A DNA stretch of 64,000 nt from Burkholderia sp. Nafp2/4-1b (lineage in GTDB: Bacteria; Pseudomonadota; Gammaproteobacteria; Burkholderiales; Burkholderiaceae), in NCBI RefSeq assembly GCF_003635165.1, contig NZ_ML058619.1, positions 1-64,000 on the forward strand, written 5' to 3'. This document shows positions 13,377 to 33,220 of the stretch, piece by piece. Below the pieces are notes generated by a model. It was not told the DNA's origin, did not search any database, and worked only from the letters and a program-made list of their open reading frames with translations. A program made the translations under genes and the position numbers. Numbering within the stretch: position 1 is the first letter of the stretch; the number at the start of each line of letters is the position of its first letter.

Positions 13377-13474
13377 CGGTATCGGCGCAATGCTCGTCCA
13401 GACGGGCGACGAGCCGAATTGAACCCGGGTAGGTCGGGCAAATCGCGAATGAATTTCATTCCATTTGAATAGGA

Positions 13475-17936: not shown

Positions 17937-18486
17937 CGACGGGGTGTACTGGTACCGCCGGTCGAGGGACCGCTCACCTTCAATGCAGTCACGTCTGGAC
18001 ATGCCCTCTGCTTCGTTAGCGAAGGGTAGACGCTAACCCATTGTTTTGTCGGAATAAATATTTAGGGCCGCAAGGCAAGGCCTTGCCAGGCCTAATGGCG
18101 CCTAACCGGAAAAACGCATGGAAATCAAAGGCGCCCCCTGCAGCCCCTGACTTTTTCCCACGCGACGTACCGTAGTCCCGAGCGCCGCGGTTCCGGCATC
18201 GCTGGAAGCACCGCGCGATCCGGCGCCTTTTCCCGCCGAAGGCGGCGCAGCGCGTTTCCGTTACCCCGATCTCGCAAACCCTAAGTTAAGAAAAACTTTA
18301 CGTTCGACTATTATTTTCCTGCGTTTACCGGGTGTGACCGCGTCGATATGATCAGTTCCGCTTACCGCCGAAACGCGACAAGAACGGCACGGAGCACACT
18401 GGTGGCCGAGCAGTCCGGCCAACCGATCTGACAGCCGGGGAGCCCCTCGCGCCTGTCGCGATGGATACGGAAACGCAGAGGATCCG
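17937..18486. promoter_or_regulatory. Junction between the Tn3 remnant and the onium-type operon
   Basis: No gene is visible. A 14-bp palindrome GGCAAGGCCTTGCC lies at 18074-18087. An AT-rich tract follows at about 18280-18315. The motif TTTTCCTGCGTTTAC at 18314-18328 recurs upstream of the M24 gene (near 29475). The region from about 18280 on is the likely promoter of the downstream block. Confidence 0.5.
18312..18333 (+). promoter_or_regulatory. Candidate operator, copy 1 (TTTTCC-TGCGTTTAC-CGGG)
   Basis: This stretch aligns with 29471-29495 (TTTTCC-T-TGCGTTTAC-G-CGGG) with only one-base gaps. The copies lie about 155 and 180 bases before the first gene (18487) and last gene (29676) of the same block, as expected for a shared activator or RNA polymerase site. 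The regulator is unknown; the GlxA/AraC and LysR genes in the block are the natural candidates. Confidence 0.45.
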
Positions 18487-19815
18487 ATGAGCAAGAAGCA
18501 GATGAAACTCGGCCTGTCGATCAGGTACATGGGATACCACCTCGGCGCGTGGCGCCACCCGGAGCTGCAGGCCGATGCGGCGTCGCAGTTCGGCTTGTAT
18601 CTGGACGTCGCGAGGCTCGCCGAGCGCAACAAGTTCGACCTGCTGTTCCTCGCGGATGGCATCGGCGTGCGCTACGACGACGTGCCGAAGGGTTCGCTGT
18701 GCCGCTCGAGCCACAACGTCGAACTCGAGCCGCTCACCCTGCTCTCCGCGCTCGCCAGCCAGACCCGGCAGATCGGCCTGGTCGCGACGGCGTCCACCAC
18801 CTACAACGAGCCGTACCACATCGCACGCAAGTACGGCTCCCTGGACCAGATCAGCGGCGGGCGCGCCGGCTGGAACGTGGTGACCTCCTGGTCCGAGCAG
18901 GAAGCGTGGAATTTCAACCGCGCCAAGCATCTCGACTACGACACCCGCTACGAGCGAGCGGCCGAGTTCGTCGACGTGGTGACGGGGCTGTGGGACAGCT
19001 GGGACGCCGACGCGTTCGTGCACGACAAGGAATCGAGCGTGTTCTACGACGAGGCGAAGCTGCACGTGCTCGGTCATGCGGGCAAGCACTTCTCGGTGCG
19101 CGGCCCGCTCAGCGTGCGGCGCTCGCCGCAGGGGCGGCCGATCCTGGTGCAGGCGGGAACCTCCGAGGTCGGCCAGCAGATCGCCGCGAAACATTGCGAC
19201 ATCGTGTTCGCAGCCCAGCAGAGCATGGCGGCAGCGCAGAAATACTACGCGTCGGTCAAGGATCGCCTGCCGGCCCTCGACCGCAGCGAGGACGAACTGC
19301 TGATGATGGTCGGCCTGACACCGATCGTCGGCCGCACGCGCGACGAGGCGCAGGAGAAATACGCGATGCTCCAGGAGCTGATCGATCCGCTGGTCGGGCT
19401 GTCGATCCTGAAACGCTCGTTCGGCGACCTGTCGCACATGGATCTGGACGGCCCTGTGCCGCCCCCGCCGCTCGAAGACGTCGGGCTGCGCAGCAGCGCG
19501 AGCATGTACTACGAGACGGCGCAGCGCGAAGGCCTGACGATCCGGCAACTGTACAAGCGGATCGCGATGTCGCAGGAGCATCTGACCGTGATCGGCACCG
19601 CGAACGACGTGGCCGACGCGATGGAAGCCTGGATCGACGGCAAGGCCGCCGACGGTTTCAATATCGCGCCGACCCACCTGCCGCACGCACTGCACGACTT
19701 CGCCGATCTGGTGCTGCCGGAACTGCGCCGACGCGGACGATTCCGTACCGAATACGAAGGAACCACGCTGCGCCAGAACCTCGGGCTGCCGGAACCGCGG
19801 AGCCTCTACGCCTGA
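18487..19815 (+). CDS. NtaA/SnaA/DszA-family FMN-dependent monooxygenase
   Basis: A 442-aa luciferase-fold oxygenase that uses reduced FMN supplied by a separate reductase, here the next gene. Family blocks: MGYHLGAWRHPELQ, FDLLFLADGIGV, LEPLTLLSALA, GLVATASTTYNEPYHIAR, LDQISGGRAGWNVVTS, GRPILVQAGTS, and a C-terminal LPELRRRGRFRTEYEGTTLR. Characterised members attack nitrilotriacetate, dibenzothiophene sulfone, pristinamycin or dimethyl sulfide (DmoA), so the family alone does not give the substrate. In this operon, with a betaine-type importer and a DddP-like lyase, dimethyl sulfide is a reasonable guess. Three further luciferase-fold oxygenases occur at 47-56 kb. Confidence 0.85.
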   Translation: MSKKQMKLGLSIRYMGYHLGAWRHPELQADAASQFGLYLDVARLAERNKFDLLFLADGIGVRYDDVPKGSLCRSSHNVELEPLTLLSALASQTRQIGLVATASTTYNEPYHIARKYGSLDQISGGRAGWNVVTSWSEQEAWNFNRAKHLDYDTRYERAAEFVDVVTGLWDSWDADAFVHDKESSVFYDEAKLHVLGHAGKHFSVRGPLSVRRSPQGRPILVQAGTSEVGQQIAAKHCDIVFAAQQSMAAAQKYYASVKDRLPALDRSEDELLMMVGLTPIVGRTRDEAQEKYAMLQELIDPLVGLSILKRSFGDLSHMDLDGPVPPPPLEDVGLRSSASMYYETAQREGLTIRQLYKRIAMSQEHLTVIGTANDVADAMEAWIDGKAADGFNIAPTHLPHALHDFADLVLPELRRRGRFRTEYEGTTLRQNLGLPEPRSLYA

Positions 19816-19868
19816 CGCGCAGGGAACGCCTGTTTTCGTGAAACTCTCTTGAGACTGTCAAACCGATC

Positions 19869-20885
19869 ATGCGCATCTCCGAATCTTCCATGCAGCGCGC
19901 GTTCGTGCCGATCGAACAGGGCAACCCCGCCGACGATCCGCGCATGTTCCGCCGCGGCCTGAGCCAGTACGGCACCGGCATCGCCATCGTCACGACCGCG
20001 GACGGCGAGCGCCGTTCGGCGGTCACCGTCAACTCGTTTTCCTCGCTGTCGCTGGATCCGCCTCTGCTGCTGTGGTCGATCGACCGGAAATCGCGCAGCT
20101 TCCCGGCCTTCTCGAGCTGCGAGCATTTCGCGGTGAACATTCTGTCGTCCGAGCAGATCGAGCTGTCGCGCCACTTCTCCAGCAAGATCGAGGACAAGTT
20201 CGCGGACGTGGCCTGGCAACCGGACCCGTTCGGCTCGCCGCTGCTGGATGGCTGCCTCGCGCATTTCGAATGCGACGTGCACGCCCGCCACGACGGCGGC
20301 GACCACCTGCTGCTGATCGGCCGGGTCACGCGGCTCACGCGCTTCGAAGGCGTGCCGCTCATCTTCAGCCAGGGCCAGTACTGCATTGCCAGCGAGCCGC
20401 CCGAAGTGCCGGGCGATTCGGCCGAGATCGCCAACGCGGGCACCGGGCCAGCCGGCAACAACCTGCTGCAACTGATCTTCGACACGCACCATGCGCTGTC
20501 CGAAGCCTTCGATGAACATCGCCGCGCCGAAGGCGTGAGCATCGCGGTGGCACGCGTGCTGGCCAGTGTCCACGCGAGCCCCGGCATCAAGGTGGGCGAC
20601 GTCGCCTGCCAGACCTATCTCGGTCAGCGCGATGTCGAGGACGCCGTCACCTGGCTGGCCCAGAAGGCGCTGTTGGTCCGCACCGCGGACGGCGGCGTAC
20701 GGCTGACCGATGCGGGGCTGGCCTTGCGCCAGTCGATCCGCGCGCGCTGGATCGCCTTCGAGGATGCGCAGCTCGACGGCGTGTCGTCCGCCGATATCGC
20801 CGTGCTGATGCGCACGCTGACGCGGCTGGTGGAACGCACGCGCGGCCAGCCGGCCGCCCCGCCCGCCGCCGCGCGCCAGGCGTGA
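19869..20885 (+). CDS. Flavin reductase fused to a C-terminal winged-helix domain
   Basis: 338 aa in two parts. Residues about 25-175 are a HpaC/DmoB-like flavin reductase (RRGLSQYGTGIAIVTT, RRSAVTVNSFSSLSLDPPLL, FAVNILSSEQIELSRHFSS, LLIGRVTRL, GVPLIFSQGQYC). It should provide FMNH2 for the monooxygenase 53 bases upstream. Residues about 195-330 look like a MarR-type winged helix (ISIAVARVLASVHASPGIKV, VEDAVTWLAQKALLVRTADG, VRLTDAGLALRQSI). Stand-alone reductases are about 170 aa, so the extra half is real and the frame is continuous. It may be a redox- or flavin-sensing regulator, or the helix domain may serve dimerisation. Confidence 0.82.
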   Translation: MRISESSMQRAFVPIEQGNPADDPRMFRRGLSQYGTGIAIVTTADGERRSAVTVNSFSSLSLDPPLLLWSIDRKSRSFPAFSSCEHFAVNILSSEQIELSRHFSSKIEDKFADVAWQPDPFGSPLLDGCLAHFECDVHARHDGGDHLLLIGRVTRLTRFEGVPLIFSQGQYCIASEPPEVPGDSAEIANAGTGPAGNNLLQLIFDTHHALSEAFDEHRRAEGVSIAVARVLASVHASPGIKVGDVACQTYLGQRDVEDAVTWLAQKALLVRTADGGVRLTDAGLALRQSIRARWIAFEDAQLDGVSSADIAVLMRTLTRLVERTRGQPAAPPAAARQA

Positions 20886-21002
20886 CGCGCCCCGCGCGGA
20901 CGGATCTCCCACGCCCGCGCACGTAGCCAGGCACGAGTTTTCGGTTTTCGGTCCGCCGCGCGATTGCCAGGCACCCGTACAGGTTCGAAAGGGCACGAAA
21001 CA

Positions 21003-22625
21003 ATGAGCTGGGATTTCATCATCATCGGTGCAGGGTCGGCGGGGTGCGTGCTGGCGAATCGCCTCAGCGCCGATCCGCGCCACAGGGTGCTGCTGCTGGA
21101 GGCTGGCGGCAGCGACAACCGCTTTGCCATCAAGATTCCGGCCCTGGCGATGAAGGCCATGAACGATCCGGAGACCGACTGGATGTTTCCGACCGAGCCG
21201 GACCCGACGCGCAACGGTCGCACCGAGATCGTGCCGCGCGGCAAGGTGCTCGGCGGGTCGAGCTCGATCAATGCCACGTGGTACGTGCGCGGCAATCGTG
21301 GCGACTACGATCATTGGGCCGCGCTCGGCAATGCCGGCTGGTCGTACGACGAACTGCTGCCGTACTTCCGCAAGGTGGAATGCAACCGGGACGGCATCAG
21401 CGCGACCTACGGAAAGGCCGGCGCGATCGTGATCAGCGAGATCCGCGGCGTGCCGCCGCTCACGCGGGTATTCCTCGACGCGATGGAGGAACTCGGCTAT
21501 CCGAAGAACGTCGACTTCAATGCCGAGCCGACCGAGGGCGTGGCCATCCTGCACTCGACCCAGCATCGCGGCCTGCGCTGGAGCGCGGCGCGAGGCTATC
21601 TCGATCCGGCCAGGAGCCGCCCCAACCTGTGCGTGCTGACCGGCGCGCTGGTGCGCCGTGTCCTGATCGAGAACCGCGCGGCGGTCGGCGTCGAATTCGA
21701 TCTCGACGGACAGCGCCGCGTGGAGCGCTGCCACGGCGAGGTGATCGTCAGCGCGAGCGCCATCAATTCGCCGAAGATCCTGATGCATTCGGGCATCGGC
21801 CCGGCCGACCAGTTGAACCTCGCCGGCATTCCGGTGATCGTCGAGAACCGCGCGGTGGGCCGCAATCTGCAGGAGCACCCGGCCTGCCAGGTCAAGGCCT
21901 ATGTGAACGTGCGCACGGCCAACCAGGAATTCAACGCGCTCGGCATGCTCAAGTACGGCACGCGCTTCCTGCTGTCGCGCTCCGGCCAGGCCACCTTCTC
22001 ATACAGCGGCGTCGGTCTGATACGCACGCGGCCCGAGCTGGCCTATCCCGACATCCAGTATCACTTCGGCGCGTTTTCCTCGAGCTACACCGACCAGGGC
22101 ATCCGCATGGAGCCCGAGGCCGCGATCAACCTGCAGCCCAACGTGAACAATTCGCGCAGCCGCGGCGAGGTGAAACTGAAATCGTCGGACCCGTTCGCAC
22201 CGCCGAGCATCCAGTTCAACATGCTGGCCGACGCCTACGATCGCGAGACGCTGATCGCCGGCGCTCGCATCGCACGCGCGGCGCTGCGCTCGCACGCCTT
22301 CGCGCCCTATGTGACCGGCGAGTGCAAGCCAGGCGACGACGTGCAGACGGACGACGAATGGCTCGCCTACCTGCGCGAGAACGCCGGCGGCAGCTTCCAC
22401 CCATGCGGCACCTGCAAGATGGGCGTCGATGCCGATGCGGTGGTCACGCCCGATCTGAAAGTGATCGGCGTGGAGCGCCTGCGCGTGGTGGATTCCTCGA
22501 TCATCCCGCAGATTCCGAGCGGCAATCTCAATGCCATCAGCCTCGTGATCGGCGAGAAAGGCGCCGACATGATCCTCGCCGCACGTCGAGCCGCAACGGC
22601 CGGCGAGGCCGCGCAGCATACGTAA
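21003..22625 (+). CDS. GMC-family FAD-dependent alcohol/choline dehydrogenase-like oxidoreductase
   Basis: A 540-aa flavoprotein. The start at 21003 gives the FAD-binding IIIGAGSAGCVLANRLS directly after six residues; a start at 20964 adds 13 poorly conserved residues. GMC signatures: PRGKVLGGSSSINATWYVRG and the second motif INSPKILMHSGIG. Active-site pair: His in GGSFHPCGTCKMG and Asn in SGNLNAISLVIGEKGAD. BetA-type choline dehydrogenase and DddA (3-hydroxypropionate oxidation in DMSP pathways) both belong here. The operon partners (aldehyde dehydrogenase, betaine-type importer) fit either. A GAGGC-TCGA-GCCTC palindrome follows the stop at 22627-22640. Confidence 0.83.
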   Translation: MSWDFIIIGAGSAGCVLANRLSADPRHRVLLLEAGGSDNRFAIKIPALAMKAMNDPETDWMFPTEPDPTRNGRTEIVPRGKVLGGSSSINATWYVRGNRGDYDHWAALGNAGWSYDELLPYFRKVECNRDGISATYGKAGAIVISEIRGVPPLTRVFLDAMEELGYPKNVDFNAEPTEGVAILHSTQHRGLRWSAARGYLDPARSRPNLCVLTGALVRRVLIENRAAVGVEFDLDGQRRVERCHGEVIVSASAINSPKILMHSGIGPADQLNLAGIPVIVENRAVGRNLQEHPACQVKAYVNVRTANQEFNALGMLKYGTRFLLSRSGQATFSYSGVGLIRTRPELAYPDIQYHFGAFSSSYTDQGIRMEPEAAINLQPNVNNSRSRGEVKLKSSDPFAPPSIQFNMLADAYDRETLIAGARIARAALRSHAFAPYVTGECKPGDDVQTDDEWLAYLRENAGGSFHPCGTCKMGVDADAVVTPDLKVIGVERLRVVDSSIIPQIPSGNLNAISLVIGEKGADMILAARRAATAGEAAQHT

Positions 22626-22695
22626 GGAGGCTCGAGCCTCGTCGTTTAACCGTTCCTGTCCACTCAGCCTTTGTTGGAGTTTCTCGGAGCAACTG

Positions 22696-23667
22696 ATGAA
22701 ATCACGACTCGCAATTCTCGCTGCCGCCCTCCTGATCGGCCCGCTCTCCGCCCCCGCCATGGCGGCGGAGTGCGGCTCGGTGACCATCACGGAGATGAAC
22801 TGGTCATCCGCCGCAATCGTCACGGCGGTGTCGAGCTTCCTGATGGAACAGGGCTACGGCTGCAAGGTGCAGAAGGTGCCGACCTCGACGGTGCCCGCGC
22901 TGACCTCGCTGTCCGAAACCGGCAAGCCCGACATCCTCACCGAAGTCTGGCCGGCGGTGGCCGACGTGTACTACACGCTGGAAAAGCAGGGAAAGATCGT
23001 GCAGCTCGCCAACGTGATCGCCGACGGCGGTCAGGACGGCTGGTGGGTGCCCAAGTATCTGGTGGACCAGCATCCTGAACTGAAGACCCTCGACGGCATC
23101 CTCGCGCATCCGGAGCTGGTCGGCGGCCAGTTCGACAACGGCCCGCCCGGCTGGGGCTCGACGGTATCGAACAACAACCTGATCAAGGCCTTCGAGCTGG
23201 AGAAACACGGCATCAAGGTGGTCAGCTTCGGCTCCGGCGAAACGCTCGCGGCCTCGCTCGCGGCGGCGTACAAGGACAAGAAGCCGTGGTTCGGCTACTA
23301 CTGGGCGCCGACCGCGCTGCTCGGCAAGTATCCGATGGTCAGCGTGGACATGGGCCCCGTGGTACCGGCCATCGCCAAGTGCAACGCGCGCCTGGATTGC
23401 GCCACACCGGGCAAGACGGGCTGGCCTCGTGCACCCGTGCTGACCACCATGGCGAAGCCGTTCCGCGATGCGCATCCGGACATCGCGGCCCTGATGAGCC
23501 GCGTGTCGTTCTCGAACTCGCTGATGAGCCAGCTGCTGTCCTGGCAGGAGACGAACAAGGCCACGGCCGATGAAACCGCCGCCTATTTTTTGACGCACTA
23601 TAAGGACCAGTGGAAGAGCTGGGTGTCGCCCGCCGCGCTGGCCAAGGTCAGCTCCGTCATCAAGTGA
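22696..23667 (+). CDS. Glycine betaine-type ABC transporter substrate-binding protein (ProX/OpuAC family)
   Basis: A 323-aa periplasmic protein with signal peptide MKSRLAILAAALLIGPLSAP ending AMA-AECG. OpuAC-domain motifs: ITEMNWSSAAIVTAV, LTEVWPAVADVYYTL, NGPPGWGSTVSNN, and PWFGYYWAPTALLGKY. Trp and Tyr residues in these segments form the aromatic cage that binds quaternary ammonium or sulfonium headgroups in this family. Ligand candidates are glycine betaine, choline, carnitine and DMSP. It heads the importer operon and is followed by a strong intercistronic hairpin. Confidence 0.85.
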   Translation: MKSRLAILAAALLIGPLSAPAMAAECGSVTITEMNWSSAAIVTAVSSFLMEQGYGCKVQKVPTSTVPALTSLSETGKPDILTEVWPAVADVYYTLEKQGKIVQLANVIADGGQDGWWVPKYLVDQHPELKTLDGILAHPELVGGQFDNGPPGWGSTVSNNNLIKAFELEKHGIKVVSFGSGETLAASLAAAYKDKKPWFGYYWAPTALLGKYPMVSVDMGPVVPAIAKCNARLDCATPGKTGWPRAPVLTTMAKPFRDAHPDIAALMSRVSFSNSLMSQLLSWQETNKATADETAAYFLTHYKDQWKSWVSPAALAKVSSVIK

Positions 23668-23677
23668 GGCATCCGCA

Positions 23678-23711
23678 CGGTCTCCGGGCAGGCAGGCGCA
23701 CCCGGAGACCG
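23678..23711 (+). other. Intercistronic hairpin after the betaine-type binding protein
   Basis: CGGTCTCCGGG (23678-23688) pairs perfectly with CCCGGAGACCG (23701-23711) across a 12-base loop, 10 bases after the stop. No T-run follows. As at 3121-3141, it sits exactly between a binding-protein gene and its permease gene, where message protection or partial termination keeps the binding protein in excess. Confidence 0.65.
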
Positions 23712-23787
23712 ATGCGTCGCTTCCGCGCCCTGCCATGGCGCAATGCATCCATGAATCGAGCGGCCCCGGACGCGAGGATTGATATCC

Positions 23788-24831
23788 ATGAACATCGATA
23801 ACGCATTTTTTGATTCGGTCGGCCTGCGGCCATGGTGCGATGCCCATGCCCAGTCGGGGCCGGTCTCCCTCGCGCAGTTGCTGTCGAAGGCCGCCGCTGC
23901 GTCATCGGACCAGGGCGGCGGATGGAACTTCCCGTTTCCGTCGCTCGATGCGCTGAACGCGGACTGCGCGGCCATCCCGCGTACCCGCGACCTGACCACC
24001 GGCATCGAGCAGGGCTTCCTGCACATCCGCCACGGACTGAAGCTGGTACTGGACCCGATCACCCAGCCGCTGTCGTGGATGCTGCAACTCTCGCTGCACA
24101 TGGTGGAGATCGTGCCGTGGTGGCTGGCCACGCTGGCGCTGCTGGCCATCACCTACGGCCTGTCGCGTTCGAAGAAGGTGACCGCGATGACGGCCGCCCT
24201 GCTCTTCTGCCTCGGGCTGGTCGACTATCTGCACTACGCGCTGCAAACCACGGCGATCGTGCTGACCTGCACGCTGATCTGCATCGTGCTGGGCATCCCG
24301 GCCGGTATCGCCATGTCGAAGAGCGACCGCCTCAAGAGCAGCATGCTGCCGGTGCTCGACATGCTGCAGACGCTGCCTTCGTTCGTCTACCTGATCCCGC
24401 TGATCTTCCTGTTCAGCGTGACCGACCCGAAGCTTTACGGAATCGCCATCATCCTCTACGCGATCGTGCCGATGATCCGGCTCACCGATCTCGGCATCCG
24501 TCAGGTGGACGGCACTGTCGGCGAGGCGGCCTCCGCGTTCGGCATGAGCTGGTTTCAGAAGCTGGTGGGCGTGGAGCTGCCGCTGGCGCTGCCCAGCATC
24601 ATGGCCGGCGTGAACCAGACCATCATGATGTCGCTGTCGATGGTCGTGATCGCGTCGCTGGTGTCGGCGCCCGGGCTCGGCGTGCTGGTGCTGCGCGGCA
24701 TCAACAATCTCGAGCTCGGCGTGGGGCTGCTGGCCGGGCTGTCGATCGTGTTTCTTGCGATCCTGTTCGATCGCGTCACCAAGGTATCGATGTCGCGTCT
24801 CGCCGTCCACAAACAAGGAGGCCAGCAGTGA
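23788..24831 (+). CDS. Glycine betaine-type ABC transporter permease (ProW/OpuAB family)
   Basis: A 347-aa inner-membrane protein. The start at 23788 has AGGA about 9 bases upstream; a TTG nine bases earlier is less likely. A long cytoplasmic/periplasmic N-terminal part of about 110 residues is typical of ProW. TM segments follow (MVEIVPWWLATLALLAITYG; TAIVLTCTLICIVLGIPAGI; FVYLIPLIFLFSV). The EAA-type loop reads GEAASAFGMSWFQKLVGVELPLALPSIMAGVNQTIM, as in ProW. Its stop overlaps the ATPase GTG start. Confidence 0.85.
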   Translation: MNIDNAFFDSVGLRPWCDAHAQSGPVSLAQLLSKAAAASSDQGGGWNFPFPSLDALNADCAAIPRTRDLTTGIEQGFLHIRHGLKLVLDPITQPLSWMLQLSLHMVEIVPWWLATLALLAITYGLSRSKKVTAMTAALLFCLGLVDYLHYALQTTAIVLTCTLICIVLGIPAGIAMSKSDRLKSSMLPVLDMLQTLPSFVYLIPLIFLFSVTDPKLYGIAIILYAIVPMIRLTDLGIRQVDGTVGEAASAFGMSWFQKLVGVELPLALPSIMAGVNQTIMMSLSMVVIASLVSAPGLGVLVLRGINNLELGVGLLAGLSIVFLAILFDRVTKVSMSRLAVHKQGGQQ

Positions 24832-25916
24832 GCCAGGACATCAAGATCGCCGTGCGCCAGTGCTACAAGGTGTTCGGCCCGGAGGCCAAGTCGATGATGC
24901 CGCTCGTGATGAGCGGGATCAGCAAGGCCGAACTGCTCGCCAAGCATGGCCACGTGATCGGGCTTCACGACATCAACGTCGACATGCGCGCCGGTGCGAT
25001 CACGGTCGTGATGGGCCTGTCGGGCTCGGGCAAGTCGACGCTGATCCGCCATCTCAACGGCCTGATCGTGCCGACCGCCGGCGAGATCCTGGTGGACGGG
25101 CGCGACATCACCCGGCTGTCGGGGCGCGCGTTGCTGGAGTTCCGCCGCTCGAACGTGTCGATGGTGTTCCAGAACTTCGCGCTGATGCCGCATCTGACCG
25201 TGCTCGACAACGTCGGCCTGGCGAAAAAGGTGTGCGGTCAGGACAAGCCGACCGTGCAGCAGGAGGCACGGCGCTGGATCGCTCGCCTCGGCCTGTCGGG
25301 CTTCGAGGGCCGCTACCCGCACCAACTGTCGGGCGGCATGCAGCAGCGGGTCGGGATCGCGCGGGCGCTGACCTCGGACGCCGAGGTGCTGCTGATGGAC
25401 GAGGCGTTCTCGGCGCTCGATCCGCTGACCCGTGCCGACATGCAGGACCTGCTGATCGAGTTGCAGCGGGAACTGAACAAGACCATCGTGTTCATCACGC
25501 ACGATCTCGAGGAGGCGCTCAAGATAGCCGATCACATCGTGATCCTGAAGGACGGCAAGGTCGTGCAGCAAGGCAGCCCGGAAAGCATCGTGCTGCAGCC
25601 GAAGGACGACTACATCCAGCGGTTCGTCAACGACATCAACCGCGCACGCGTGCTGAAGGTGGGCTCGGTGATGAGCCCGTCCGCATCCGCGTCGTACGTG
25701 CCCGGCGACACGCTCGACGAAGGCGACACGCTCGAGGCCGCCCTGGCGAAGTCGCAAGGCGATCTCGACCGGAGTTTCGCGGTGACCCGCGGCGGCGCGG
25801 TAGTCGGTGAGTGCGCGATGCGCGACGTGGTGCGTGCAATCGTGCCGCGGCAGGTTCGCGGACAGCAGCAACCGAGCCTGCCCGATACCGCCGGCCTTCC
25901 GACCACGGCGGCCTGA
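24828..25916 (+). CDS. Glycine betaine-type ABC transporter ATPase (ProV/OpuAA family)
   Basis: A 362-aa ATPase with a GTG start at 24828 that overlaps the permease stop (GTGA) and is preceded by a near-perfect AAGGAGG site. The ProV-specific N terminus (CYKVFGP...LLAKHGHVIGLHDINV) is followed by Walker A GLSGSGKST, Q-loop MVFQNFALMPHL, signature LSGGMQQR, Walker B VLLMDEAFSALD and His-switch ITHDLEEAL. The C-terminal tail after about residue 275 (VGSVMSPSASAS...VTRGGAVVGECAMRDVVRA) is a single, incomplete CBS-like segment rather than the usual pair. Osmotic gating through tandem CBS domains may therefore be absent, which fits a catabolic importer. Confidence 0.85.
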   Translation: MSQDIKIAVRQCYKVFGPEAKSMMPLVMSGISKAELLAKHGHVIGLHDINVDMRAGAITVVMGLSGSGKSTLIRHLNGLIVPTAGEILVDGRDITRLSGRALLEFRRSNVSMVFQNFALMPHLTVLDNVGLAKKVCGQDKPTVQQEARRWIARLGLSGFEGRYPHQLSGGMQQRVGIARALTSDAEVLLMDEAFSALDPLTRADMQDLLIELQRELNKTIVFITHDLEEALKIADHIVILKDGKVVQQGSPESIVLQPKDDYIQRFVNDINRARVLKVGSVMSPSASASYVPGDTLDEGDTLEAALAKSQGDLDRSFAVTRGGAVVGECAMRDVVRAIVPRQVRGQQQPSLPDTAGLPTTAA

Positions 25917-25963
25917 ATCCGCCAGTGCCCCGCTTCCAGTTGCCACTCAATTCAAGGACTATC

Positions 25964-27382
25964 GTGCGATATCTCGACCATTTCTACATCGACGGCCAAT
26001 TCGTTCCCGCCACCCACCGGGCGCGCCGCGCCGTGATCAATCCGGCGAGCCTGGCGCCGGTCGGCGAGATCGCAATGGGCACGCGCGAGGACGTGAACGC
26101 CGCCGTCGCCGCGGCCAGACGCCGGTTCCCGTCGTTCTCCACCTCGTCGGTCAGTGCGCGGCTTGCCATGCTGCGCCGTATCGAGACGCTGTTCATCGAG
26201 CGCAGCGAGGAATTCGCGCGGCGCATGACGCTCGAAATGGGCACGCCGATCAGCTTTTCGCGGCAGGCGCAGGTGGCGGGCTCGCTGGCGCATATCCGGA
26301 ACGGCATCGAGATCCTCGAGCGTTTCGAGTTCGAAAAGACGCGCGGCAAGACCACCCTCGTGATGGAACCGGTGGGCGTGTGCGGCCTGATCACGCCGTG
26401 GAATTTCCCGGTGTTGCAGATCATCACGAAGCTGATCCCGGCACTCGCGGTAGGCTGCACCGTCGTGCTCAAGCCCAGCGAATATTCGCCGCTGAGCGCG
26501 CTCTACCTGGCCGAGCTGCTGCACGACGCCGACCTGCCGGCCGGCGCGTTCAACCTCGTCAACGGCGACGGCGCCACCGTCGGCGCCGCGATCGCCGAGC
26601 ATCCGGACCTGGAGATGGTGTCCTTCACTGGCTCGACCCGTGCCGGCGTCCAGGTGGCCAAGGCAGCGGCCGACACCGTGAAGCGCGTCCACCAGGAGCT
26701 GGGCGGGAACTCGGCCAACCTGATCCTGCCCGGTGCCGACATCGACACGGCAGTGGCCGCCGGCGTGCATGCCGCCTATCGCAACGCGGGGCAGTCGTGT
26801 ACCGCGCCGGGGCGCATGCTGGTACACCGGCCGCAGTACGAACAAGCGGTGGCACGAGCCAAGGCCACCGCCGAAACGGTGCGTTGCGGCGACGTGTTCG
26901 ACGAGCACACCACGCTCGGACCGGTGGTCAACCAGATCCAGTTCGAGCGAGCACGCGCGCTGCTCGCGTCGGCCGAGCAGGAAGGCGCCACCGTCGTGAC
27001 GGGCGGCCTCGGCCAGCCGGCCGGCGTCGAGACGGGCTATTTCATCGCGCCGACGGTCGTGGCGCAGGTCACGCCGGACATGCGCATCGCCAGAGAGGAA
27101 ATCTTCGCGCCGATCGTATCGCTGATCGCCTACGACACCGTCGACGAGGCGATCGAGATCGCCAACGATACCCCCTACGGGCTGGCCGCGTATGTGCAGG
27201 GTGACGCGGCGGCCGCCTCGCAGGCGGCCGCGCGGCTGCGCGTGGGCCAGGTGGAGATCAACACCCCGGACTGGGATTCGTACGCCCCGTTCGGCGGCTT
27301 CAAGCAGTCCGGTAACGGCCGGGAATGCGGTGAAGCCGGCTTCGAGGCCTATCTTGAAGTGAAGGCCGTGATCCGCCCGTAG
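25964..27382 (+). CDS. NAD(P)-dependent aldehyde dehydrogenase
   Basis: 472 aa with GTG start at 25964; AAGGA lies about 7 bases upstream and the protein opens VRYLDHFYIDGQFV, the normal ALDH N terminus. Upstream in-frame ATGs lie inside the ATPase gene. Motifs: cofactor site ITPWNFPVLQI, KPSEYSPLSA, FTGSTRAGVQV, general base in ELGGNSANLIL, catalytic Cys in NAGQSCTAPGR, EEIFAPIVSL, and FGGFKQSGNGRE. The operon suggests it oxidises the aldehyde from the GMC enzyme (betaine aldehyde or malonate semialdehyde are candidates). No CoA-acylating signature is obvious. Confidence 0.86.
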   Translation: MRYLDHFYIDGQFVPATHRARRAVINPASLAPVGEIAMGTREDVNAAVAAARRRFPSFSTSSVSARLAMLRRIETLFIERSEEFARRMTLEMGTPISFSRQAQVAGSLAHIRNGIEILERFEFEKTRGKTTLVMEPVGVCGLITPWNFPVLQIITKLIPALAVGCTVVLKPSEYSPLSALYLAELLHDADLPAGAFNLVNGDGATVGAAIAEHPDLEMVSFTGSTRAGVQVAKAAADTVKRVHQELGGNSANLILPGADIDTAVAAGVHAAYRNAGQSCTAPGRMLVHRPQYEQAVARAKATAETVRCGDVFDEHTTLGPVVNQIQFERARALLASAEQEGATVVTGGLGQPAGVETGYFIAPTVVAQVTPDMRIAREEIFAPIVSLIAYDTVDEAIEIANDTPYGLAAYVQGDAAAASQAAARLRVGQVEINTPDWDSYAPFGGFKQSGNGRECGEAGFEAYLEVKAVIRP

Positions 27383-27417
27383 TCACGCGCCCCGTTCCCA
27401 CCGGCTGCCGCACGATC

Positions 27418-28491
27418 ATGCCGCCCCTGCTCCCGCTCGCACCGCAAGCGCCGGTGCCGGCCGACAGAACGCTGGCGAAGTTCGCCAGCGCTTCGCATTT
27501 CGTATTCCTGCTGGTGCCGAACTTCAGCATGATCGCGTTCGTCAACGCGCTCGAAGTATTACGGATCGCGAACCAGTTGAGCGGCAAGCCGCTGTACCGC
27601 TGGTCCGTGATCAGCGTGGACGGACAGCCCGTGGAGGCCAGCAACGGCCTGAAGCTGTCGGTCGACGTGCCGGAAACGCCGGGCCCGGCCGATATCGTGT
27701 TCGTCTGCGCCGGCAACGAGGTGCAGCGCGCCACCACGCCGGCACATCTGCAGCGGGCCCGCCAGTTCGCGCATGCCGGTACGCTGCTCGGCAGCATCTG
27801 CACCGGCGCCTACGTGCTGGCCAAGGCCGGCCTGCTGGCCGGCCACACCTGCGTGATCCACTGGGAATACCTGCACGCGCAAGCGGAAAGCTTCATCGAC
27901 GTCACGTTCGAGCGCAGTATCTTCCGCATCGACCGCGAGCGCATCACCTGCGCGGGCGGCGTGGCACCGCTCGAGATGATGCTGTACCTCGTCGGGCTGT
28001 CGATGGGCGATGCGTTCGTGCAACGCATCTCGAGCTATCTGGCGGTGGACCGGGTCCGGCATCCCGGCGCGCTGCAACCGCCCGCCGGCTACGGCTCCGC
28101 CAGCCGGTTGCTGGCCGACGTGCTGCAATTGATGGAAGCGCATATCGAGACACCGCTGTCGCTGGTGGCGTTGGCGCAGCGCGCCGGCGTGCGCGAGCGC
28201 AGGCTGCTGCGCCTGTTCAGGTCGGCGGTGGGGCAGCCGGTGATGCAGCACTATCGATTGTTGCGCCTGCGCCGGGCTCGCCAGCTCCTGCAGCAAAGCA
28301 GCATGCTGCTGACCGATATCGCGGTAGCCTGTGGCTTCCAGTCGCTGTCGGTGTTCACTTCCGCCTACCGCAAAACCTTCGGCCTGACACCCGGCCAGGA
28401 GCGCCGACAGGCGCAAAGCCGCACCTTCGGCAGCGACGCGCGCGAGCACGCTGCCGAGCGGCACGATACAGTCGTGGCAATGCGTCGCTGA
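27418..28491 (+). CDS. GlxA-family transcriptional regulator (DJ-1/PfpI domain plus AraC HTH)
   Basis: A 357-aa activator. Residues about 20-190 form the class I glutamine-amidotransferase-like domain (FVFLLVPNFSMIAFVNALEV; GSICTGAYVLAKAGLLAGHT; CVIHWEYLHA). Residues about 220-335 carry the double AraC HTH (LSLVALAQRAGVRERRLLRL; LTDIAVACGFQSLSVFTSAY RKTFGLTPGQER). Characterised relatives (GbdR, CdhR, SouR) sense betaine, carnitine or sarcosine, so its place beside a betaine-type importer points to an onium inducer. It starts 35 bases after the dehydrogenase stop. Confidence 0.87.
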   Translation: MPPLLPLAPQAPVPADRTLAKFASASHFVFLLVPNFSMIAFVNALEVLRIANQLSGKPLYRWSVISVDGQPVEASNGLKLSVDVPETPGPADIVFVCAGNEVQRATTPAHLQRARQFAHAGTLLGSICTGAYVLAKAGLLAGHTCVIHWEYLHAQAESFIDVTFERSIFRIDRERITCAGGVAPLEMMLYLVGLSMGDAFVQRISSYLAVDRVRHPGALQPPAGYGSASRLLADVLQLMEAHIETPLSLVALAQRAGVRERRLLRLFRSAVGQPVMQHYRLLRLRRARQLLQQSSMLLTDIAVACGFQSLSVFTSAYRKTFGLTPGQERRQAQSRTFGSDAREHAAERHDTVVAMRR

Positions 28492-28518
28492 CGCGCGCGC
28501 GGACAGGAGACCGGATAC

Positions 28519-29430
28519 ATGAGTTCATTGAAAGCGACGCTGCCGCCACCGAACACGTTGATCGTGTTCGAGGCAGCCGGCCGTCATCTGAGTTTCTCGC
28601 GGGCGGCCGTCGAACTGAACGTGTCGCGCGTGGCCGTCAGCCAGCAGATCCAGGCGCTCGAGACTTTCCTCGGCGTGCAGTTGTTCGACCGCGCCGACCG
28701 CACCATCCGGCTGACCGACAGCGGCGTGCGGTATCACACGGCCGTCTCGTCCGCGCTGCGGCAGGTCGGGCAGGCCACCATCGAGATCAGTTCGCGGCCG
28801 GCGAACAACATCGTTACCATCAGCGCGACCGCCGGCTTCGTGACCTACTGGCTGCTGCCGAATTTCGGCAGTTTCCGCGCGCAGCACCCCGACATCGAGC
28901 TGCGCTTCATCGTGTCGGACCTGCCGTATCTGGGCGAGAAGGATGTGGATCTCGCGGTGACCTACAGTTCCGCGCCCCCCGCCGAGGATTCGATCCTGCT
29001 GACGTCGCAGACCATCGCGCCCACCTGCTCTGCCACCTATCTGGTCGACCACGACACGCCCCTTGATCCCGCCGACCTGCTCGGACATCCGCTGATCCAC
29101 CTCGAAGGGCCCTACGATCGCCTCACACGCTGGTCGACCTGGTTTACCAACCATGGCGTCAGCATGGACGGAACCAAGCCGAACATCACGGTCAACACTT
29201 ACACCAACCTGGCCCAGGCCGCGCTGGACGGGCAAGGCTTCGCGCTGATCGGCCCGCCGCTGATGAGCCGCTTTCTCGCCAGCCGGCTGCTCGTGCAGCC
29301 CATCCGGACCGATCCGGTGCGTTGCCACGGCTTCCATCTGACGGTTGCGCGCAACTCGTCCGGCACACCGGCCACCGAGGCCGTGGTGGCCTGGGTCAAG
29401 GGCTCCTTCGTTCAGCAGATGGCCGCCTGA
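28519..29430 (+). CDS. LysR-type transcriptional regulator (GcvA-like)
   Basis: 303 aa. N-terminal winged HTH at about residues 9-68 (PNTLIVFEAAGRHLSFSRAA; LNVSRVAVSQQIQALETFLG; LFDRADRTIRLTDSG), then the substrate-binding domain with VTISATAGFVTYWLLPNFGSF. The PPPNTLIVFEAAGRHLSF opening is typical of the GcvA subgroup. It starts 27 bases after the GlxA-type gene, so one transcript probably encodes two regulators. It lies 245 bases before the M24 gene, whose promoter region repeats the motif found at the head of the block. Confidence 0.87.
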   Translation: MSSLKATLPPPNTLIVFEAAGRHLSFSRAAVELNVSRVAVSQQIQALETFLGVQLFDRADRTIRLTDSGVRYHTAVSSALRQVGQATIEISSRPANNIVTISATAGFVTYWLLPNFGSFRAQHPDIELRFIVSDLPYLGEKDVDLAVTYSSAPPAEDSILLTSQTIAPTCSATYLVDHDTPLDPADLLGHPLIHLEGPYDRLTRWSTWFTNHGVSMDGTKPNITVNTYTNLAQAALDGQGFALIGPPLMSRFLASRLLVQPIRTDPVRCHGFHLTVARNSSGTPATEAVVAWVKGSFVQQMAA

Positions 29431-29470
29431 GGCGCCGGCCGGATACGTTCACTTTTCATTAACAGGCGGA

Positions 29471-29495
29471 TATTTTTTCCTTGCGTTTACGCGGG
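29471..29495 (+). promoter_or_regulatory. Candidate operator, copy 2 (TTTTCC-T-TGCGTTTAC-G-CGGG)
   Basis: Second copy of the motif at 18312-18333. It lies in the 245-bp gap before the M24 gene, indicating that this gene has its own promoter but shares control with the upstream operon. Confidence 0.45.
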
Positions 29496-29675
29496 GACGG
29501 GCCGCGCACGATACTGATGGCACGGGGCCGGACGTCGTCGGCCCCTCCCCGGCGCAGGGTGTAACTGCACCGCGCGCTCGTTTATCTGCATCACTAATCA
29601 ATCTGGATCGATGTGACGCCGCCGATTCCCGGCTACGCATCGTCGGTCCACCTCCCCTTACTGACAGGTAATCGC

Positions 29676-30974
29676 ATGAACCGCCGCTTCACTGATGACA
29701 CGGATGCATCGATGGCCGCCACGGCCGAGCGCCGCCAGTTCCGGCAGGACCCGCTCTCGCAAGGACATCGGGCAAGTTCCGTCGACGCCGCGCTGATCGA
29801 GGCATTCGAGGTGCTCGACCGCCCGGCGCTGCGTGCGTATCGACTCGAGCGATTGCGTGCGCAACTGAAACAGCACGACTACGCCGGGATGCTGTTGGCC
29901 GACCCGATCAACATCCGTTACGCGACCGACACCAACAGCCTCGGCGTATGGGTGATGCACTCGCCGAGTCGTTACGTGTTCGTGGCCACGGATGGCCCCG
30001 TGATCCTGTTCGACTTCGCCACCAGCCGGCACAACAGTGAAGGCATCGAGACGATCGACGAGATCCGGCCGACCATTCCGTGGAACTTCTTTCTGGCCGG
30101 CCCGCGTGTGGGCGAGAAGGCACGCGAATGGGCACGCAGCATCGCGGACGTGGTGCGGCAGCACGGCGGCGGCAACCGCCGGCTCGCACTCGACAAGTGC
30201 GATCCCTGGGGTGCGGAATGGCTGCGCACGGAGGGCCTGTCCTTGCACGATGCGCAACCGCTGACTGAAATGGCACGCATGATCAAGGGCCCTCAGGAAA
30301 TCGAGCAACATCGCATCTCGATGGGCGTGTGTGACCTCGGCGTATCGAGGATGCGCGAAGCATTGCGCCCCGGCATCACCGAGAACCAGTTGTGGAGCGT
30401 GCTGCAGGACACCAATACGGCCCACGGCGGCGAATGGAGCGAAGCGCGCCTGCTCAGCTCCGGGCCGCGCACCAACCCGTGGTTCCGTGATGCCACCAAT
30501 CGCGAGATCCTCGCCGGCGATATCGTCGGCTTCGACACCGACATGGTCGGGCCCGGCGGTTACCTCTCCGATATTTCACGCAGCTTCGTGTGCCCCGGCA
30601 AGGCCCCTTCCGCCGCGCAACGTACGCTGTTCGGCCGTGCCCGCGATCAGATCGCACACAATTGCGCGCTGCTACGTCCCGGCGTGACCTTCCGCGAGTT
30701 CGCCGAGAAAAGCTGGGCGGTGCCGGTGCAGTACGTCCACAACCGCTACATGATGATGGTTCACGGTTGCGGGTTGGTGGACGAGTTCCCGAGCGTGGCC
30801 TATGCGGTCGACTTCGACGAATGGGGTTACGACGGGGTGTTCGAGGAGAACATGGTGGTGTCGGTCGAGAGTTTCATCGGCGAAAAGGACGGGATCGAGG
30901 GCGTCAAGCTCGAGGAGCAGGTGCTGATCACGGCCGATGGCGCGGTGCCCTTGTCGTCGGTGCCGCTTGTGTGA
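29676..30974 (+). CDS. M24-fold protein, DddP (DMSP lyase)-like
   Basis: A 432-aa creatinase/aminopeptidase-P-fold protein with start at 29676 (ACAGG upstream). The family N-terminal domain reads LLADPINIRYATDT. Metal-site residues: Asp287 and Asp289 (GFDTDMVG), Asp299 (LSDISRSF), His363 (MMVHGCGLVDEFP), Glu398 (VVSVESF), Glu413 (KLEEQVLI). As I recall, structurally studied DddP uses Asp295, Asp297, Asp307, His371, Glu406 and Glu421, with Asp377 as catalytic base and Tyr366 nearby. Here every one is present, each shifted by exactly eight (Asp369, Tyr358). Creatinase, ectoine hydrolase and Xaa-Pro peptidases share the fold but not, to my knowledge, this full pattern. The likely reaction is DMSP to dimethyl sulfide plus acrylate, unproven. 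Last gene of the block. Confidence 0.68.
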   Translation: MNRRFTDDTDASMAATAERRQFRQDPLSQGHRASSVDAALIEAFEVLDRPALRAYRLERLRAQLKQHDYAGMLLADPINIRYATDTNSLGVWVMHSPSRYVFVATDGPVILFDFATSRHNSEGIETIDEIRPTIPWNFFLAGPRVGEKAREWARSIADVVRQHGGGNRRLALDKCDPWGAEWLRTEGLSLHDAQPLTEMARMIKGPQEIEQHRISMGVCDLGVSRMREALRPGITENQLWSVLQDTNTAHGGEWSEARLLSSGPRTNPWFRDATNREILAGDIVGFDTDMVGPGGYLSDISRSFVCPGKAPSAAQRTLFGRARDQIAHNCALLRPGVTFREFAEKSWAVPVQYVHNRYMMMVHGCGLVDEFPSVAYAVDFDEWGYDGVFEENMVVSVESFIGEKDGIEGVKLEEQVLITADGAVPLSSVPLV

Positions 30975-31522
30975 TCTGCGGGATATTTGAGCGGGGACGC
31001 CGGCGGGTCGCATACTCGCGGGCGCGACGCGCGAAGTCGTCCGCAATGTCGCGTCATTCGCAAGATATTCAATGCGGATTGAATGCCATTCCATCGCAAA
31101 ACGAAAATATCTGAAGAATTATCTATCGATATTAGTGTATTCCGAATGACAACAGTCGAGTGCAATATTCAATAAATCGGATCTCGATCATTTAATTGCC
31201 CCCGCTTCACATCGACTTCTCTCCTCCGCACACTCGACCGGCGCCACGCGCAACCTCGTCCCGCACACCACGAGCCCCTGCCCAACACAGTCAATGCGCG
31301 GTTGCCGATACACCAAATGCATCCGACAAGACCATTTCACATTGCTAACCAAATAATGACTTGATTGACGTCGCCGCCATTAAAAAACAAGAAACTCTAA
31401 AATATCTTGTAATTATAAAAGCGGCCTTCTAGCATGCCTTTGCTGTTCGCAATACGGACTTATCCAAAAGTCATTACTTGATGCATTCCTCGAACAAACC
31501 CACTCATAACCTGGGGAATTAC
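30975..31522. promoter_or_regulatory. AT-rich gap before the metalloprotease gene
   Basis: No gene seen. A 7-base inverted repeat ATTCAAT-GCGG-ATTGAAT lies at 31067-31084, about 90 bases after the M24 stop; it could be a transcript-end hairpin or a LysR-type site. The stretch 31340-31440 is strongly AT-rich and is the probable promoter zone of zmpA, but no convincing -35/-10 pair stands out. I looked for a CepR-type quorum-sensing box and did not find one. Confidence 0.4.
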
Positions 31523-33220
31523 ATGAAGAAATTGTCTCGTCTGCTGCCCATCACCGCGATTACCGTCGCGAGTCTCAGCGCTTTTGCCCAGGCCGGCGAC
31601 CAGCCGGCCGCGGTCGACAAGGCGCTGCAACTGATTCAGCAGAACCCGTCCGCCTTCAGTCTCGCTGCCGGCGGCACGGCACGCGCGTTGAAGTTCGCGG
31701 GACCGCAAGCAAGCACGACGACGGACGGCGATCAGTTCCAGGTGCGCGACGTGATCGTCGACCCCGACGGCACCGAACACGTGCGCTTCGACCGCTTCTA
31801 CGCGGGCCTGCCCGTGATAGGCGGTGACGTCGTCGTCCATTCGAGCAAGGGGCAATTGAAACAGGCGAGCCTGACCCAGCTCGCGCCGATCAATCTCGCC
31901 GGCATGATCGGCAAGGTCGGCGCCCGCTCGGTGGTCCGCAACGCACCCGATGTAGGCGCGACCAAGGCCCGGCACGTCGCGGCCGCGCGTTTCAATTCGG
32001 ACGTGCGCCGCGTGGATGACGCTGAACTCGTCGTGTTCGCACGCGACGTCACGCCGACGCTGGCCTACGCAGTGCGCGTATACGGCAAGGCGACCGACGT
32101 ACACGGCGACGCCGTGCTGTACTACGTCGACGCGCGCACGGGCGCCGTGCTCGACGCCCAGGACCTGATCAAGACCGCCTCGGCAACCGGCACCGGCCGG
32201 TCGCTGTACTACGGCAACCTGACGCTCACCACGGACCAGACGGGCACGAACGCGTACCGGATGCTCGACCCGAGCCGCGGCGGCGGGTCGGTCTACGATG
32301 GCCGCGGCCTGAGCTCGGACGACGTCGAGCAGGCAACCGATCTGCCGATCTTCACGAGCAGCACGAACGTGTGGGGCAACAACACGACGACCGACCGACA
32401 GACCGTCGCCGCGGACATCGACTACGGGCTCGCATTGACTTGGGACTACTACAAGACGGCACACAACCGCAGCGGCATCTTCAACGACGGTCGCGGCGTG
32501 AAGAGTTACGCTCACGTCGTATTCAACACCGGCAGCGGCACGACCGGCGCGAACGCGGCATGGCTGGCGTCGCACGTGATGGCATACGGCGACGGCGAGC
32601 CGGGCACCAGCCTGCCCAAACCCGTCGTGTCGGTCGACGTCGCCGGACACGAGATGAGCCACGGCGTGACCGAGGCCACGTCCAACCTGAACTATTCGGG
32701 CGACGCGGGCGGGCTGAACGAGTCGACGTCCGACATTTTCGGCACGCTCGTGAAGTACTACGCGAATAACCCGAACGATCCCGGCAACTACGTGATCGGT
32801 GCGCGCGTGGTGAGCGGCGGCCTGCGCAAGATGTACAAGCAGGATCTCGACGGCCGGTCGTTCAGCTGTTACCCGTCCGGCGGCTTCTCGTGGTCGAATC
32901 CGCGTCACGATCCGCATTTCACGTCGGGTGTCGGCAACCGCTTCTTCTACCTGCTCGCGGAAGGTCCTGCGGTGCCGTCGACCGATACCGGCCTGTCGCG
33001 GACGCAACTGGTCTGCAACGGCGACACGACCTTCAGCGGCCTCGGCCGCGAGAAGGCCGGCAAGATCTGGTACCGCACGCTCACGGTGTATCTGAACGCA
33101 AACTCGAGCTATCCGAACGCACGGCGCGCGTCGATCCAGGCTGCAACCGACCTGTATGGCGCGAACTCTGCCGAGAGCGCCACGGTTGCGCGCGCGTGGA
33201 GTGCAGTCGGCGTGAATTGA
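31523..33220 (+). CDS. zmpA: Secreted zinc metalloprotease, thermolysin (M4) family, ZmpA-like
   Basis: A 565-aa preproenzyme, the length I recall for B. cenocepacia ZmpA. The start at 31523 follows GGGGA by about 8 bases; an upstream ATG at 31478 lacks a ribosome-binding site. Signal peptide MKKLSRLLPITAITVASLSA, FTP/PepSY-type propeptide to roughly residue 210 (VRFDRFYAGLPVIGGDVVVH), then the protease. The zinc site is His376-Glu-xx-His380 (HEMSH) with Glu400 twenty residues later (GGLNESTSD), as in thermolysin. DVAGHEMSHGVTE and FFYLLAEGP fit the M4 family. Secreted virulence protease that cleaves host proteins in the Bcc; autoprocessing of the propeptide is expected. Confidence 0.85.
   Translation: MKKLSRLLPITAITVASLSAFAQAGDQPAAVDKALQLIQQNPSAFSLAAGGTARALKFAGPQASTTTDGDQFQVRDVIVDPDGTEHVRFDRFYAGLPVIGGDVVVHSSKGQLKQASLTQLAPINLAGMIGKVGARSVVRNAPDVGATKARHVAAARFNSDVRRVDDAELVVFARDVTPTLAYAVRVYGKATDVHGDAVLYYVDARTGAVLDAQDLIKTASATGTGRSLYYGNLTLTTDQTGTNAYRMLDPSRGGGSVYDGRGLSSDDVEQATDLPIFTSSTNVWGNNTTTDRQTVAADIDYGLALTWDYYKTAHNRSGIFNDGRGVKSYAHVVFNTGSGTTGANAAWLASHVMAYGDGEPGTSLPKPVVSVDVAGHEMSHGVTEATSNLNYSGDAGGLNESTSDIFGTLVKYYANNPNDPGNYVIGARVVSGGLRKMYKQDLDGRSFSCYPSGGFSWSNPRHDPHFTSGVGNRFFYLLAEGPAVPSTDTGLSRTQLVCNGDTTFSGLGREKAGKIWYRTLTVYLNANSSYPNARRASIQAATDLYGANSAESATVARAWSAVGVN

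Follow-up and report, generated by a model that had tools for sequence, protein, structure and literature searches.

A candidate catabolic cluster for small zwitterionic onium compounds with a DmpX-like importer and a DddP-like M24 enzyme in Burkholderia sp. Nafp2/4-1b

Introduction

Does a gene cluster of Burkholderia sp. Nafp2/4-1b (7.8 Mb genome, labelled G000) take up and cleave dimethylsulfoniopropionate (DMSP) with a lyase of the DddP type? The question is raised by positions 18487-30974 of a 64,000-nucleotide part of contig C23, hereafter the window, where reading of the open reading frames (ORFs) and family profiles reveal ten plus-strand genes filling the interval (Table 1). They encode a flavin monooxygenase with its reductase, a betaine-type importer, two dehydrogenases, two regulators and an M24-fold enzyme resembling DddP. 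An earlier note on this DNA had read them as a locus for the import of DMSP, its cleavage by DddP to acrylate and dimethyl sulfide (DMS), and the oxidation of both products. The observations behind this interpretation were confirmed, and the interpretation as a whole was partly supported: the binding protein of the importer is kin to a DMSP-binding protein, and the M24 enzyme belongs to another clade than DddP. In our best explanation, for which the case seems to us evenly balanced, 18487-30974 was acquired by horizontal transfer and serves the breakdown of a small onium zwitterion through the reactions proposed below. Open PMC text, which mostly leaves out the subscription literature, yielded no description of the cluster, including the available passages of PMC5395565, PMC10686828, PMC10130141, PMC9259527, PMC13352529 and PMC8163506.

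The M24 enzyme and its relatives

The 432-aa protein read from 29676 carries Asp287, Asp289, Asp299, His363, Glu398, Glu413, Tyr358 and Asp369, the counterparts of Asp295, Asp297, Asp307, His371, Glu406, Glu421, Tyr366 and Asp377 of RdDddP as given in passages of PMC4108388. All eight stand where the earlier note had placed them and the match is kept on alignment; the constant offset of eight that it reported holds across the catalytic domain (query 430 = 4RZY chain residue 438) and is lost outside it (query 47 = chain residue 52). Similarity to 4B28 is far beyond chance (E 1.3e-75). The active sites were compared by sequence alone, and all eight residues occur in 63 of the 72 aligned M24 proteins, so that the match is not specific for DddP. 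Indeed, of the 56 aligned proteins other than DddP rows, the window protein among them, 47 also have the complete set, and its carriers include M24 proteins encoded beside proline-betaine-type genes. The nine proteins without the full set are L026, L102, L008 and the genome's own six generic M24 proteins. The wider group is split from these generic proteins by Asp289; five of them have Ala, Gly or Thr at this position (the sixth is unaligned). The predicted six-ligand metal site and Tyr/Asp pair therefore extend beyond DddP.

Profile scores point the same way. With the NCBIfam DddP model (NF043017), the window protein reaches 333 bits for a cut-off of 600, missing it by 267, and its orthologues of Pseudomonas vlassakiae and Paraburkholderia score 346 and 340 bits. 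Among 398 genomes across the phylum (E <= 1e-60), 18 matches score 635-903 bits and all others 278-483; the window protein belongs to the low-scoring group, under a paralogue of its own genome. Two such DddP-like paralogues are present: one on C19 (L105, 417 bits), which sits in a Rieske/hydroxyproline-type cluster, and one on C5 (L106, 328 bits), which has an ABC system for polar amino acids and a ProX-like gene as neighbours. A comparison with the ectoine hydrolase DoeA, suggested by the earlier note, led to the rejection of this candidate (NF038259, 27.5 bits for a cut-off of 575).

In a tree of 79 rows, all 16 rows of DddP fall into a single clade (100/100). The window protein stands outside it and groups with 14 Burkholderiaceae orthologues of different gene setting (100/100). 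The ten rows L126-L135 branch nearer DddP than the window protein does (97/87 for nine of them, 90/87 including L135). A joint clade of the window protein and DddP was rejected (p-AU 7e-8) by an approximately unbiased (AU) test that was carried out once the tree was known, on a question taken from the earlier note, and whose constraint also bars L126-L135 from standing between the two. The window protein thus falls inside a non-DddP clade, and its identification as DddP is not upheld. The alignment and trees leave out L039, L054 and L055 (split or cut genes), the duplicates L056, L057, L058, L101, L105, L106 and L136, and the incomplete DddP L120. The DddP rows represent 16 of the 18 matches over the cut-off, the second omitted one having no locus, and cover no fungal DddP. 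Among 398 Burkholderiaceae genomes, 74 have an M24 match at E <= 1e-30; an orthologue of at least 67% identity is found in 17 other genomes, of which 14 provide intact loci for the tree and G298, G297 and G179 were left out.

The gene settings of these relatives often recall betaine catabolism. The 14 orthologue loci (69-75% identity) encode a HisP-type ATPase (14), an old yellow enzyme (OYE)/Fe-S flavoprotein (13), an ornithine cyclodeaminase (OCD)/mu-crystallin protein (13) and EtfB (6). The OCD protein is nearest to pyrroline-2-carboxylate reductase (241 bits, cut-off 322). In a second clade of 16 loci, some of them near-duplicates, which we call stc-like, a Rieske oxygenase is found in nine and its reductase in 12; both are similar to GbcA/GbcB and miss the cut-offs (390 of 670 and 351 of 500 bits). 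Some of these loci add ProXWV, dihydrodipicolinate synthase (DHDPS), an FAD oxidase, an aldehyde dehydrogenase (ALDH) and a 4-hydroxyproline epimerase. They look like loci for proline-betaine and hydroxyproline-betaine catabolism of the stc/hpb type. In a third clade, four of eight loci have a ProXWV-type gene. DddP-like M24 genes thus adjoin betaine-type genes in several clades, some loci being near-duplicates, which speaks for our best explanation.

Two further settings were observed. In Loktanella sp. D2R18 (L200, 8639-13200), a 41% M24 relative lies immediately upstream of a DmpX-like binding protein, permease and ATPase, with an OCD gene near, so that the two families are paired here independently. 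On a plasmid of Alisedimentitalea scapharcae (L097), a 42% relative lies near genes for a guanidino-oxopentanoate decarboxylase, an agmatinase and an arginase-family protein, perhaps pointing to another kind of chemistry within this M24 group.

The importer and its binding protein

The nearest solved structure of the periplasmic substrate-binding protein (SBP) is RnDmpX with bound DMSP (7YLE, 380 bits, E 9.5e-113), the next being 4XZ6 at 53 bits. The two proteins are 51% identical. At the RnDmpX pocket positions Trp35, Thr64, Trp84, Glu113, Trp152, Ala153, Tyr200 and Trp202, the window protein reads WTWDWGYW for WTWEWAYW, i.e. six of eight residues are identical, the changes being E113D and A153G. 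Tyr200, whose replacement by Ala or Phe abolishes DMSP binding by RnDmpX according to passages of PMC10030565, is kept. In a quick tree with long outgroup branches, the window SBP falls in the same 59-row clade as RnDmpX (SH-aLRT 97), where SBPs of clusters like that of the window form their own sub-clade of 12 (97) and RnDmpX belongs to a sub-clade of 44 rows (81). The importer of quaternary-ammonium or sulfonium type predicted by the earlier note is supported by the best match of its SBP, a kinship that the note did not mention and that is the best support for DMSP.

The importer proteins stay below the cut-offs of the known profiles compared. The SBP scores 44.5 bits with the choline-binding model (cut-off 379), the permease 221 bits with TIGR03416 (cut-off 363) and the ATPase, scored in a longer ORF, 316 bits with the proV subfamily (cut-off 327). 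Other DmpX-like SBPs adjoin Rieske oxygenases (L169, L178, L186) or mandelate-racemase-type enzymes. In the latter setting, plasmids of Sulfitobacter SK012 (L217) and Mesorhizobium amorphae (L218) encode SBPs with the pocket of the window protein beside mandelate-racemase/muconate-lactonizing enzymes; judging from these two, this pocket pattern may serve other betaines.

The monooxygenase, dehydrogenases and regulators

The earlier note had proposed a possible DMS monooxygenase, a reading that is not supported for the luciferase-like monooxygenase (LLM). Solved relatives of the LLM are led by YtnJ/MoxC (332 bits), 3SDO (326) and DszA (297), and DmoA (6AK1, 234 bits) comes eighth of 12, with nitrilotriacetate (NTA) monooxygenase also nearer. 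The nearest ones have other compounds with C-N or C-S bonds as substrates. Moreover, the window holds two more members of TIGR03860 over the cut-off (48606-49985 and 54986-56281); since three of its proteins pass, membership is no proof of DMS oxidation, and the LLM was rejected as such a proof.

The flavin reductase scores 200 bits with the model of p-hydroxyphenylacetate hydroxylase reductase (cut-off 340). The GMC enzyme reaches 542 bits with PRK02106 (cut-off 605) and 486 with TIGR01810 for BetA (cut-off 732), its nearest solved structures being 8B7S, a chloramphenicol-inactivating oxidoreductase, and 9LQ0, a choline dehydrogenase. The ALDH, scored in a longer ORF, is nearest to betaine aldehyde dehydrogenase (390 bits, cut-off 669), and the AraC protein remains under the GbdR cut-off of 480.

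Distribution of the core cluster

A pattern-based screen for the binding protein in 84,980 species genomes yielded 57 loci which, with three plasmid loci, made 60 to be examined, some only a few kb long. A core cluster was defined by an LLM of at least 70% and a GMC enzyme of at least 65% identity; ten of the 60 qualified, giving 11 with the window. The carriers are Burkholderia latens, Paraburkholderia sp. Tr-20389, P. vlassakiae, Rhizobium rhizogenes, Shinella daejeonensis, three Mesorhizobium, R. mesoamericanum and Rhizobium NZLR1, and core clusters thus span alpha-, beta- and gamma-proteobacteria. All 11 also have the reductase, SBP, permease, ATPase, ALDH (split in two at L161 and L167) and LysR genes, and the LLMs of the other ten are 73-98% identical to that of the window. 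With eight genes common to all 11, the catabolic cluster described by the earlier note is real and operon-like. The AraC gene occurs in nine of the 11, the window counted. In the Mesorhizobium clusters L163, L165 and L167, an extra 174-aa protein, NADPH-FMN-reductase-like by eye, is encoded between ALDH and AraC.

The M24 gene was found in four of the 11 core clusters, within the stretches covered, in versions of Burkholderia, Paraburkholderia and Pseudomonas; in P. vlassakiae, it lies directly behind the ALDH gene. No close orthologue was found in the six rhizobial hosts searched, which do not include NZLR1: five have M24 relatives of 41-51% only and R. mesoamericanum none at E <= 1e-40. In the 31 kb stretch of NZLR1, none of the 29 listed features carries the name of a known DMSP lyase, the feature table being incomplete.

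The core cluster is rare. An LLM match above 63% is found among 398 Burkholderiaceae genomes in this genome and G298 only, and 20 loci of LLM relatives of 54-63% gave no SBP or M24 match (E 1e-10), two of these loci ending at contig ends. Similarly, the SBP has a match at E <= 1e-120 among 249 Pseudomonas genomes in P. vlassakiae only, and at E <= 1e-50 among 300 Burkholderiales in this genome, G011 (43%) and G532 (36%) only.

Gene layout and transfer

Neighbouring genes of the cluster are separated by -4 to 120 bases, apart from a gap of 245 bases between the LysR and M24 genes. A scan for signals gave four promoter-like sites for 2.0 expected and six terminator-like sites for 6.7 expected. 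The block that recurs in the B. latens record has ends nearly matching those of the cluster and stops 19 bases past the M24 gene. Directly upstream lies a partial Tn3-family transposase (16738-18036; Tn3 model 307 bits, cut-off 500), around which no inverted repeat pair was found. Because of the block ends and the Tn3 fragment, the cluster, M24 gene included, was probably transferred horizontally as a mobile unit. In B. latens, the other nine genes each align whole and the M24 gene is split over two frames (13094-14390 of the record), which may reflect a pseudogene or a sequencing error, the two being indistinguishable here.

Table 1. Genes of the cluster and extent of the block shared with Burkholderia latens
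Feature	Position in the window	Strand	Evidence and remarks
FMNH2-dependent LLM monooxygenase, NtaA/DmoA subfamily	18487..19815	+	TIGR03860 539 bits, cut-off 279.7
Flavin reductase with C-terminal extension, monooxygenase partner	19869..20885	+	Flavin_Reduct 147 bits
GMC oxidoreductase, choline-dehydrogenase-like	21003..22625	+	PF00732/PF05199
Periplasmic SBP, DmpX-like	22696..23667	+	OpuAC; 7YLE RnDmpX 380 bits
ABC permease, ChoW/ProW type	23788..24831	+	BPD_transp_1
ABC ATPase, ProV type	24828..25916	+	ABC_tran; 4-base overlap with permease end
ALDH, start codon uncertain	25964..27382	+	Aldedh 507 bits
AraC regulator, GbdR/GlxA-like	27418..28491	+	NF052371 GbdR 292 bits
LysR regulator, GcvA-like	28519..29430	+	PRK11139 215 bits, cut-off 288
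DddP-like M24 enzyme, putative accessory	29676..30974	+	Peptidase_M24 + Creatinase_N; alternative GTG start 29613
Block common to the window and the B. latens record	18149..30993		blastn, 93.9% DNA identity

Proposed pathway and alternative explanations

We propose that the DmpX-like ABC importer takes up a zwitterion, probably a betaine-type quaternary ammonium or a DMSP-type sulfonium acid of plant origin. The FMNH2-dependent monooxygenase and its flavin reductase would hydroxylate the carbon beside the onium centre and thereby cleave it off, the GMC enzyme and the ALDH would turn the released alcohol or aldehyde into an acid, and the AraC and LysR proteins would sense the compound. As the M24 gene is missing from seven of the 11 core clusters within the stretches covered, the core pathway should run without it; this, together with the lack of a named DMSP lyase among the features listed at NZLR1, makes the flavin monooxygenase the likeliest opening enzyme. 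The di-metal M24 enzyme of the Burkholderia, Paraburkholderia and Pseudomonas versions is best read as accessory. It may act on a related zwitterion, either by hydrolysis of a C-N bond or by abstraction of an alpha-proton from a carboxylate bound to the metals, resulting in elimination or epimerisation, and so would widen the range of substrates or substitute for one step. A trigonelline or homarine pathway was considered and dropped, as no cluster gene points there.

Several observations weigh against this explanation. The substrate of every gene, and hence that of the pathway, is predicted from sequence: GMC, ALDH and the transporter components lie under their equivalog cut-offs, and the LLM is placed to subfamily only. 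Four of the seven rhizobial core-cluster SBPs, as well as a second copy in one genome (L164), have Thr for Trp152, so that the substrate may differ between hosts. The SBP could also be DMSP-specific like RnDmpX, which would favour a DMSP locus. Among the M24 relatives, no betaine-type marker accompanies two loci of the DddP-sister clade, two of true DddP and half of those in the third clade. A link of the OYE protein of the orthologue loci with N-demethylation is a guess modelled on OYE-type demethylases, and this protein is nearest to mycofactocin OYE_2, below the cut-off (469 bits, cut-off 793).

A true DMSP locus, in which DmpXWV-like import would be followed by cleavage to DMS and acrylate by the M24 enzyme and oxidation of both branches, is an unlikely reading. 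The kept Tyr200 and Trp cage of an SBP 51% identical to RnDmpX and the eight catalytic residues in the M24 protein argue for it. The fungal FgDddP, only 32% identical to RdDddP, cleaves DMSP according to passages of PMC4108388, so distance alone does not exclude such an activity. Against it stand the distance to the DddP cut-off and the rejected joint clade, the core clusters that have no M24 gene in the stretches covered, and the low rank of DmoA among the LLM relatives. In addition, none of 19 AcuI/YhdH hits in the genome passes its cut-off, which only two of 14 control genomes pass. DMSP is a possible imported substrate as judged from the SBP, and the present evidence shows no DMSP cleavage. 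The case for proline-betaine or hydroxyproline-betaine, where the M24 enzyme would serve N-methylproline chemistry and the LLM stand in place of Rieske-type demethylases, looks weak to us. It draws on the stc-like relatives with their Rieske oxygenases, reductases and proline-related enzymes, and on the C19 paralogue of the genome itself, which lies in such a cluster; the core cluster, however, has no proline-specific gene, and the SBP of the Rieske/M24 cluster of G011 is only 40% identical, with the pocket pattern lost (WTAYWGVW).

That the M24 gene encodes an unrelated passenger, a peptidase adjoining the LLM cluster by chance, seems improbable indeed. Its separation by the longest gap of the cluster, its absence from most core clusters and its two frames in the B. 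latens record would fit a passenger. It is nevertheless found in core clusters of three genera, adjacent to ALDH in one of them, lies inside the block that stops just behind it, and keeps Asp289, unlike five of the genome's six generic M24 proteins.

A bolder proposal, which we consider rather unlikely, is that of a new aerobic route, in which DMSP or a close analogue would be imported by the DmpX-like system and cleaved oxidatively by the FMNH2-dependent monooxygenase instead of a lyase. With DMSP, this would give DMS and malonate semialdehyde, the latter being oxidised by the ALDH. In the same proposal, DddP would be one specialised offshoot of a larger M24 group, frequently encoded beside betaine-type genes, whose six-ligand metal site and Tyr/Asp pair would predate DMSP lysis.

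Surroundings and significance

Elsewhere in the window, a sulfur-scavenging region (45761-61887) encodes a SoxC sulfite dehydrogenase over the cut-off (557 bits), SfnG-like and SfnB-like proteins below theirs, a taurine-dioxygenase-like protein and the two further NtaA/DmoA-type monooxygenases. Downstream of the M24 gene (31481-35648), a thermolysin-type M4 metallopeptidase is followed by family-3 solute-binding and TauD-like proteins on the opposite strand.

The eight published catalytic residues cannot by themselves identify DddP, as the same set is found in Burkholderiaceae and rhizobial M24 proteins of betaine-type clusters, and counts of dddP in terrestrial data that rest on loose scoring could therefore be inflated. 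The locus is a compact candidate pathway, present in three classes of Proteobacteria, that combines an importer of DMSP type with a flavin monooxygenase. If this importer binds DMSP, it raises the question of DMSP use by land bacteria.

Comparison with known systems

Compared with DddP (4B28, 4RZY), the M24 protein is homologous over both domains and shares the six metal-ligand residues and the Tyr and Asp pair; of 144 positions that never vary among 16 DddPs, 90 show an identical consensus in the clade of the window protein. The other 54 differ, including an RKIDP motif near the N-terminus and Trp312 of DddP (L109 numbering), which is Phe304 in the window protein. Further differences are the separate clade and the score of 333 for a cut-off of 600 bits. 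The importer resembles DmpXWV (7YLE; PMC10030565) in its SBP, six of eight pocket residues and X-W-V gene order, and differs by E113D, A153G and an SBP sub-clade shared with the other core clusters. Passages of PMC10030565 state that known dmpXWV genes do not adjoin known DMSP catabolic genes.

With two-component monooxygenases of the NtaA/DmoA type (YtnJ, MoxC, NTA monooxygenase, DszA, DmoA), the cluster has in common the TIGR03860 subfamily and an adjoining flavin reductase, whereas its LLM is far from DmoA (234 bits, compared to 332 for YtnJ). Proline-betaine and hydroxyproline-betaine clusters likewise have a DddP-like M24 enzyme, some of them with ProXWV, a GlxA/GbdR regulator and an ALDH, but the window cluster has no Rieske oxygenase, DHDPS or epimerase. 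Finally, the GMC, ALDH and AraC proteins resemble BetA, BetB and GbdR of the choline/glycine betaine pathway; all three are under the equivalog cut-offs, and the SBP scores only 44.5 bits with the choline-binding model, whose cut-off is 379.

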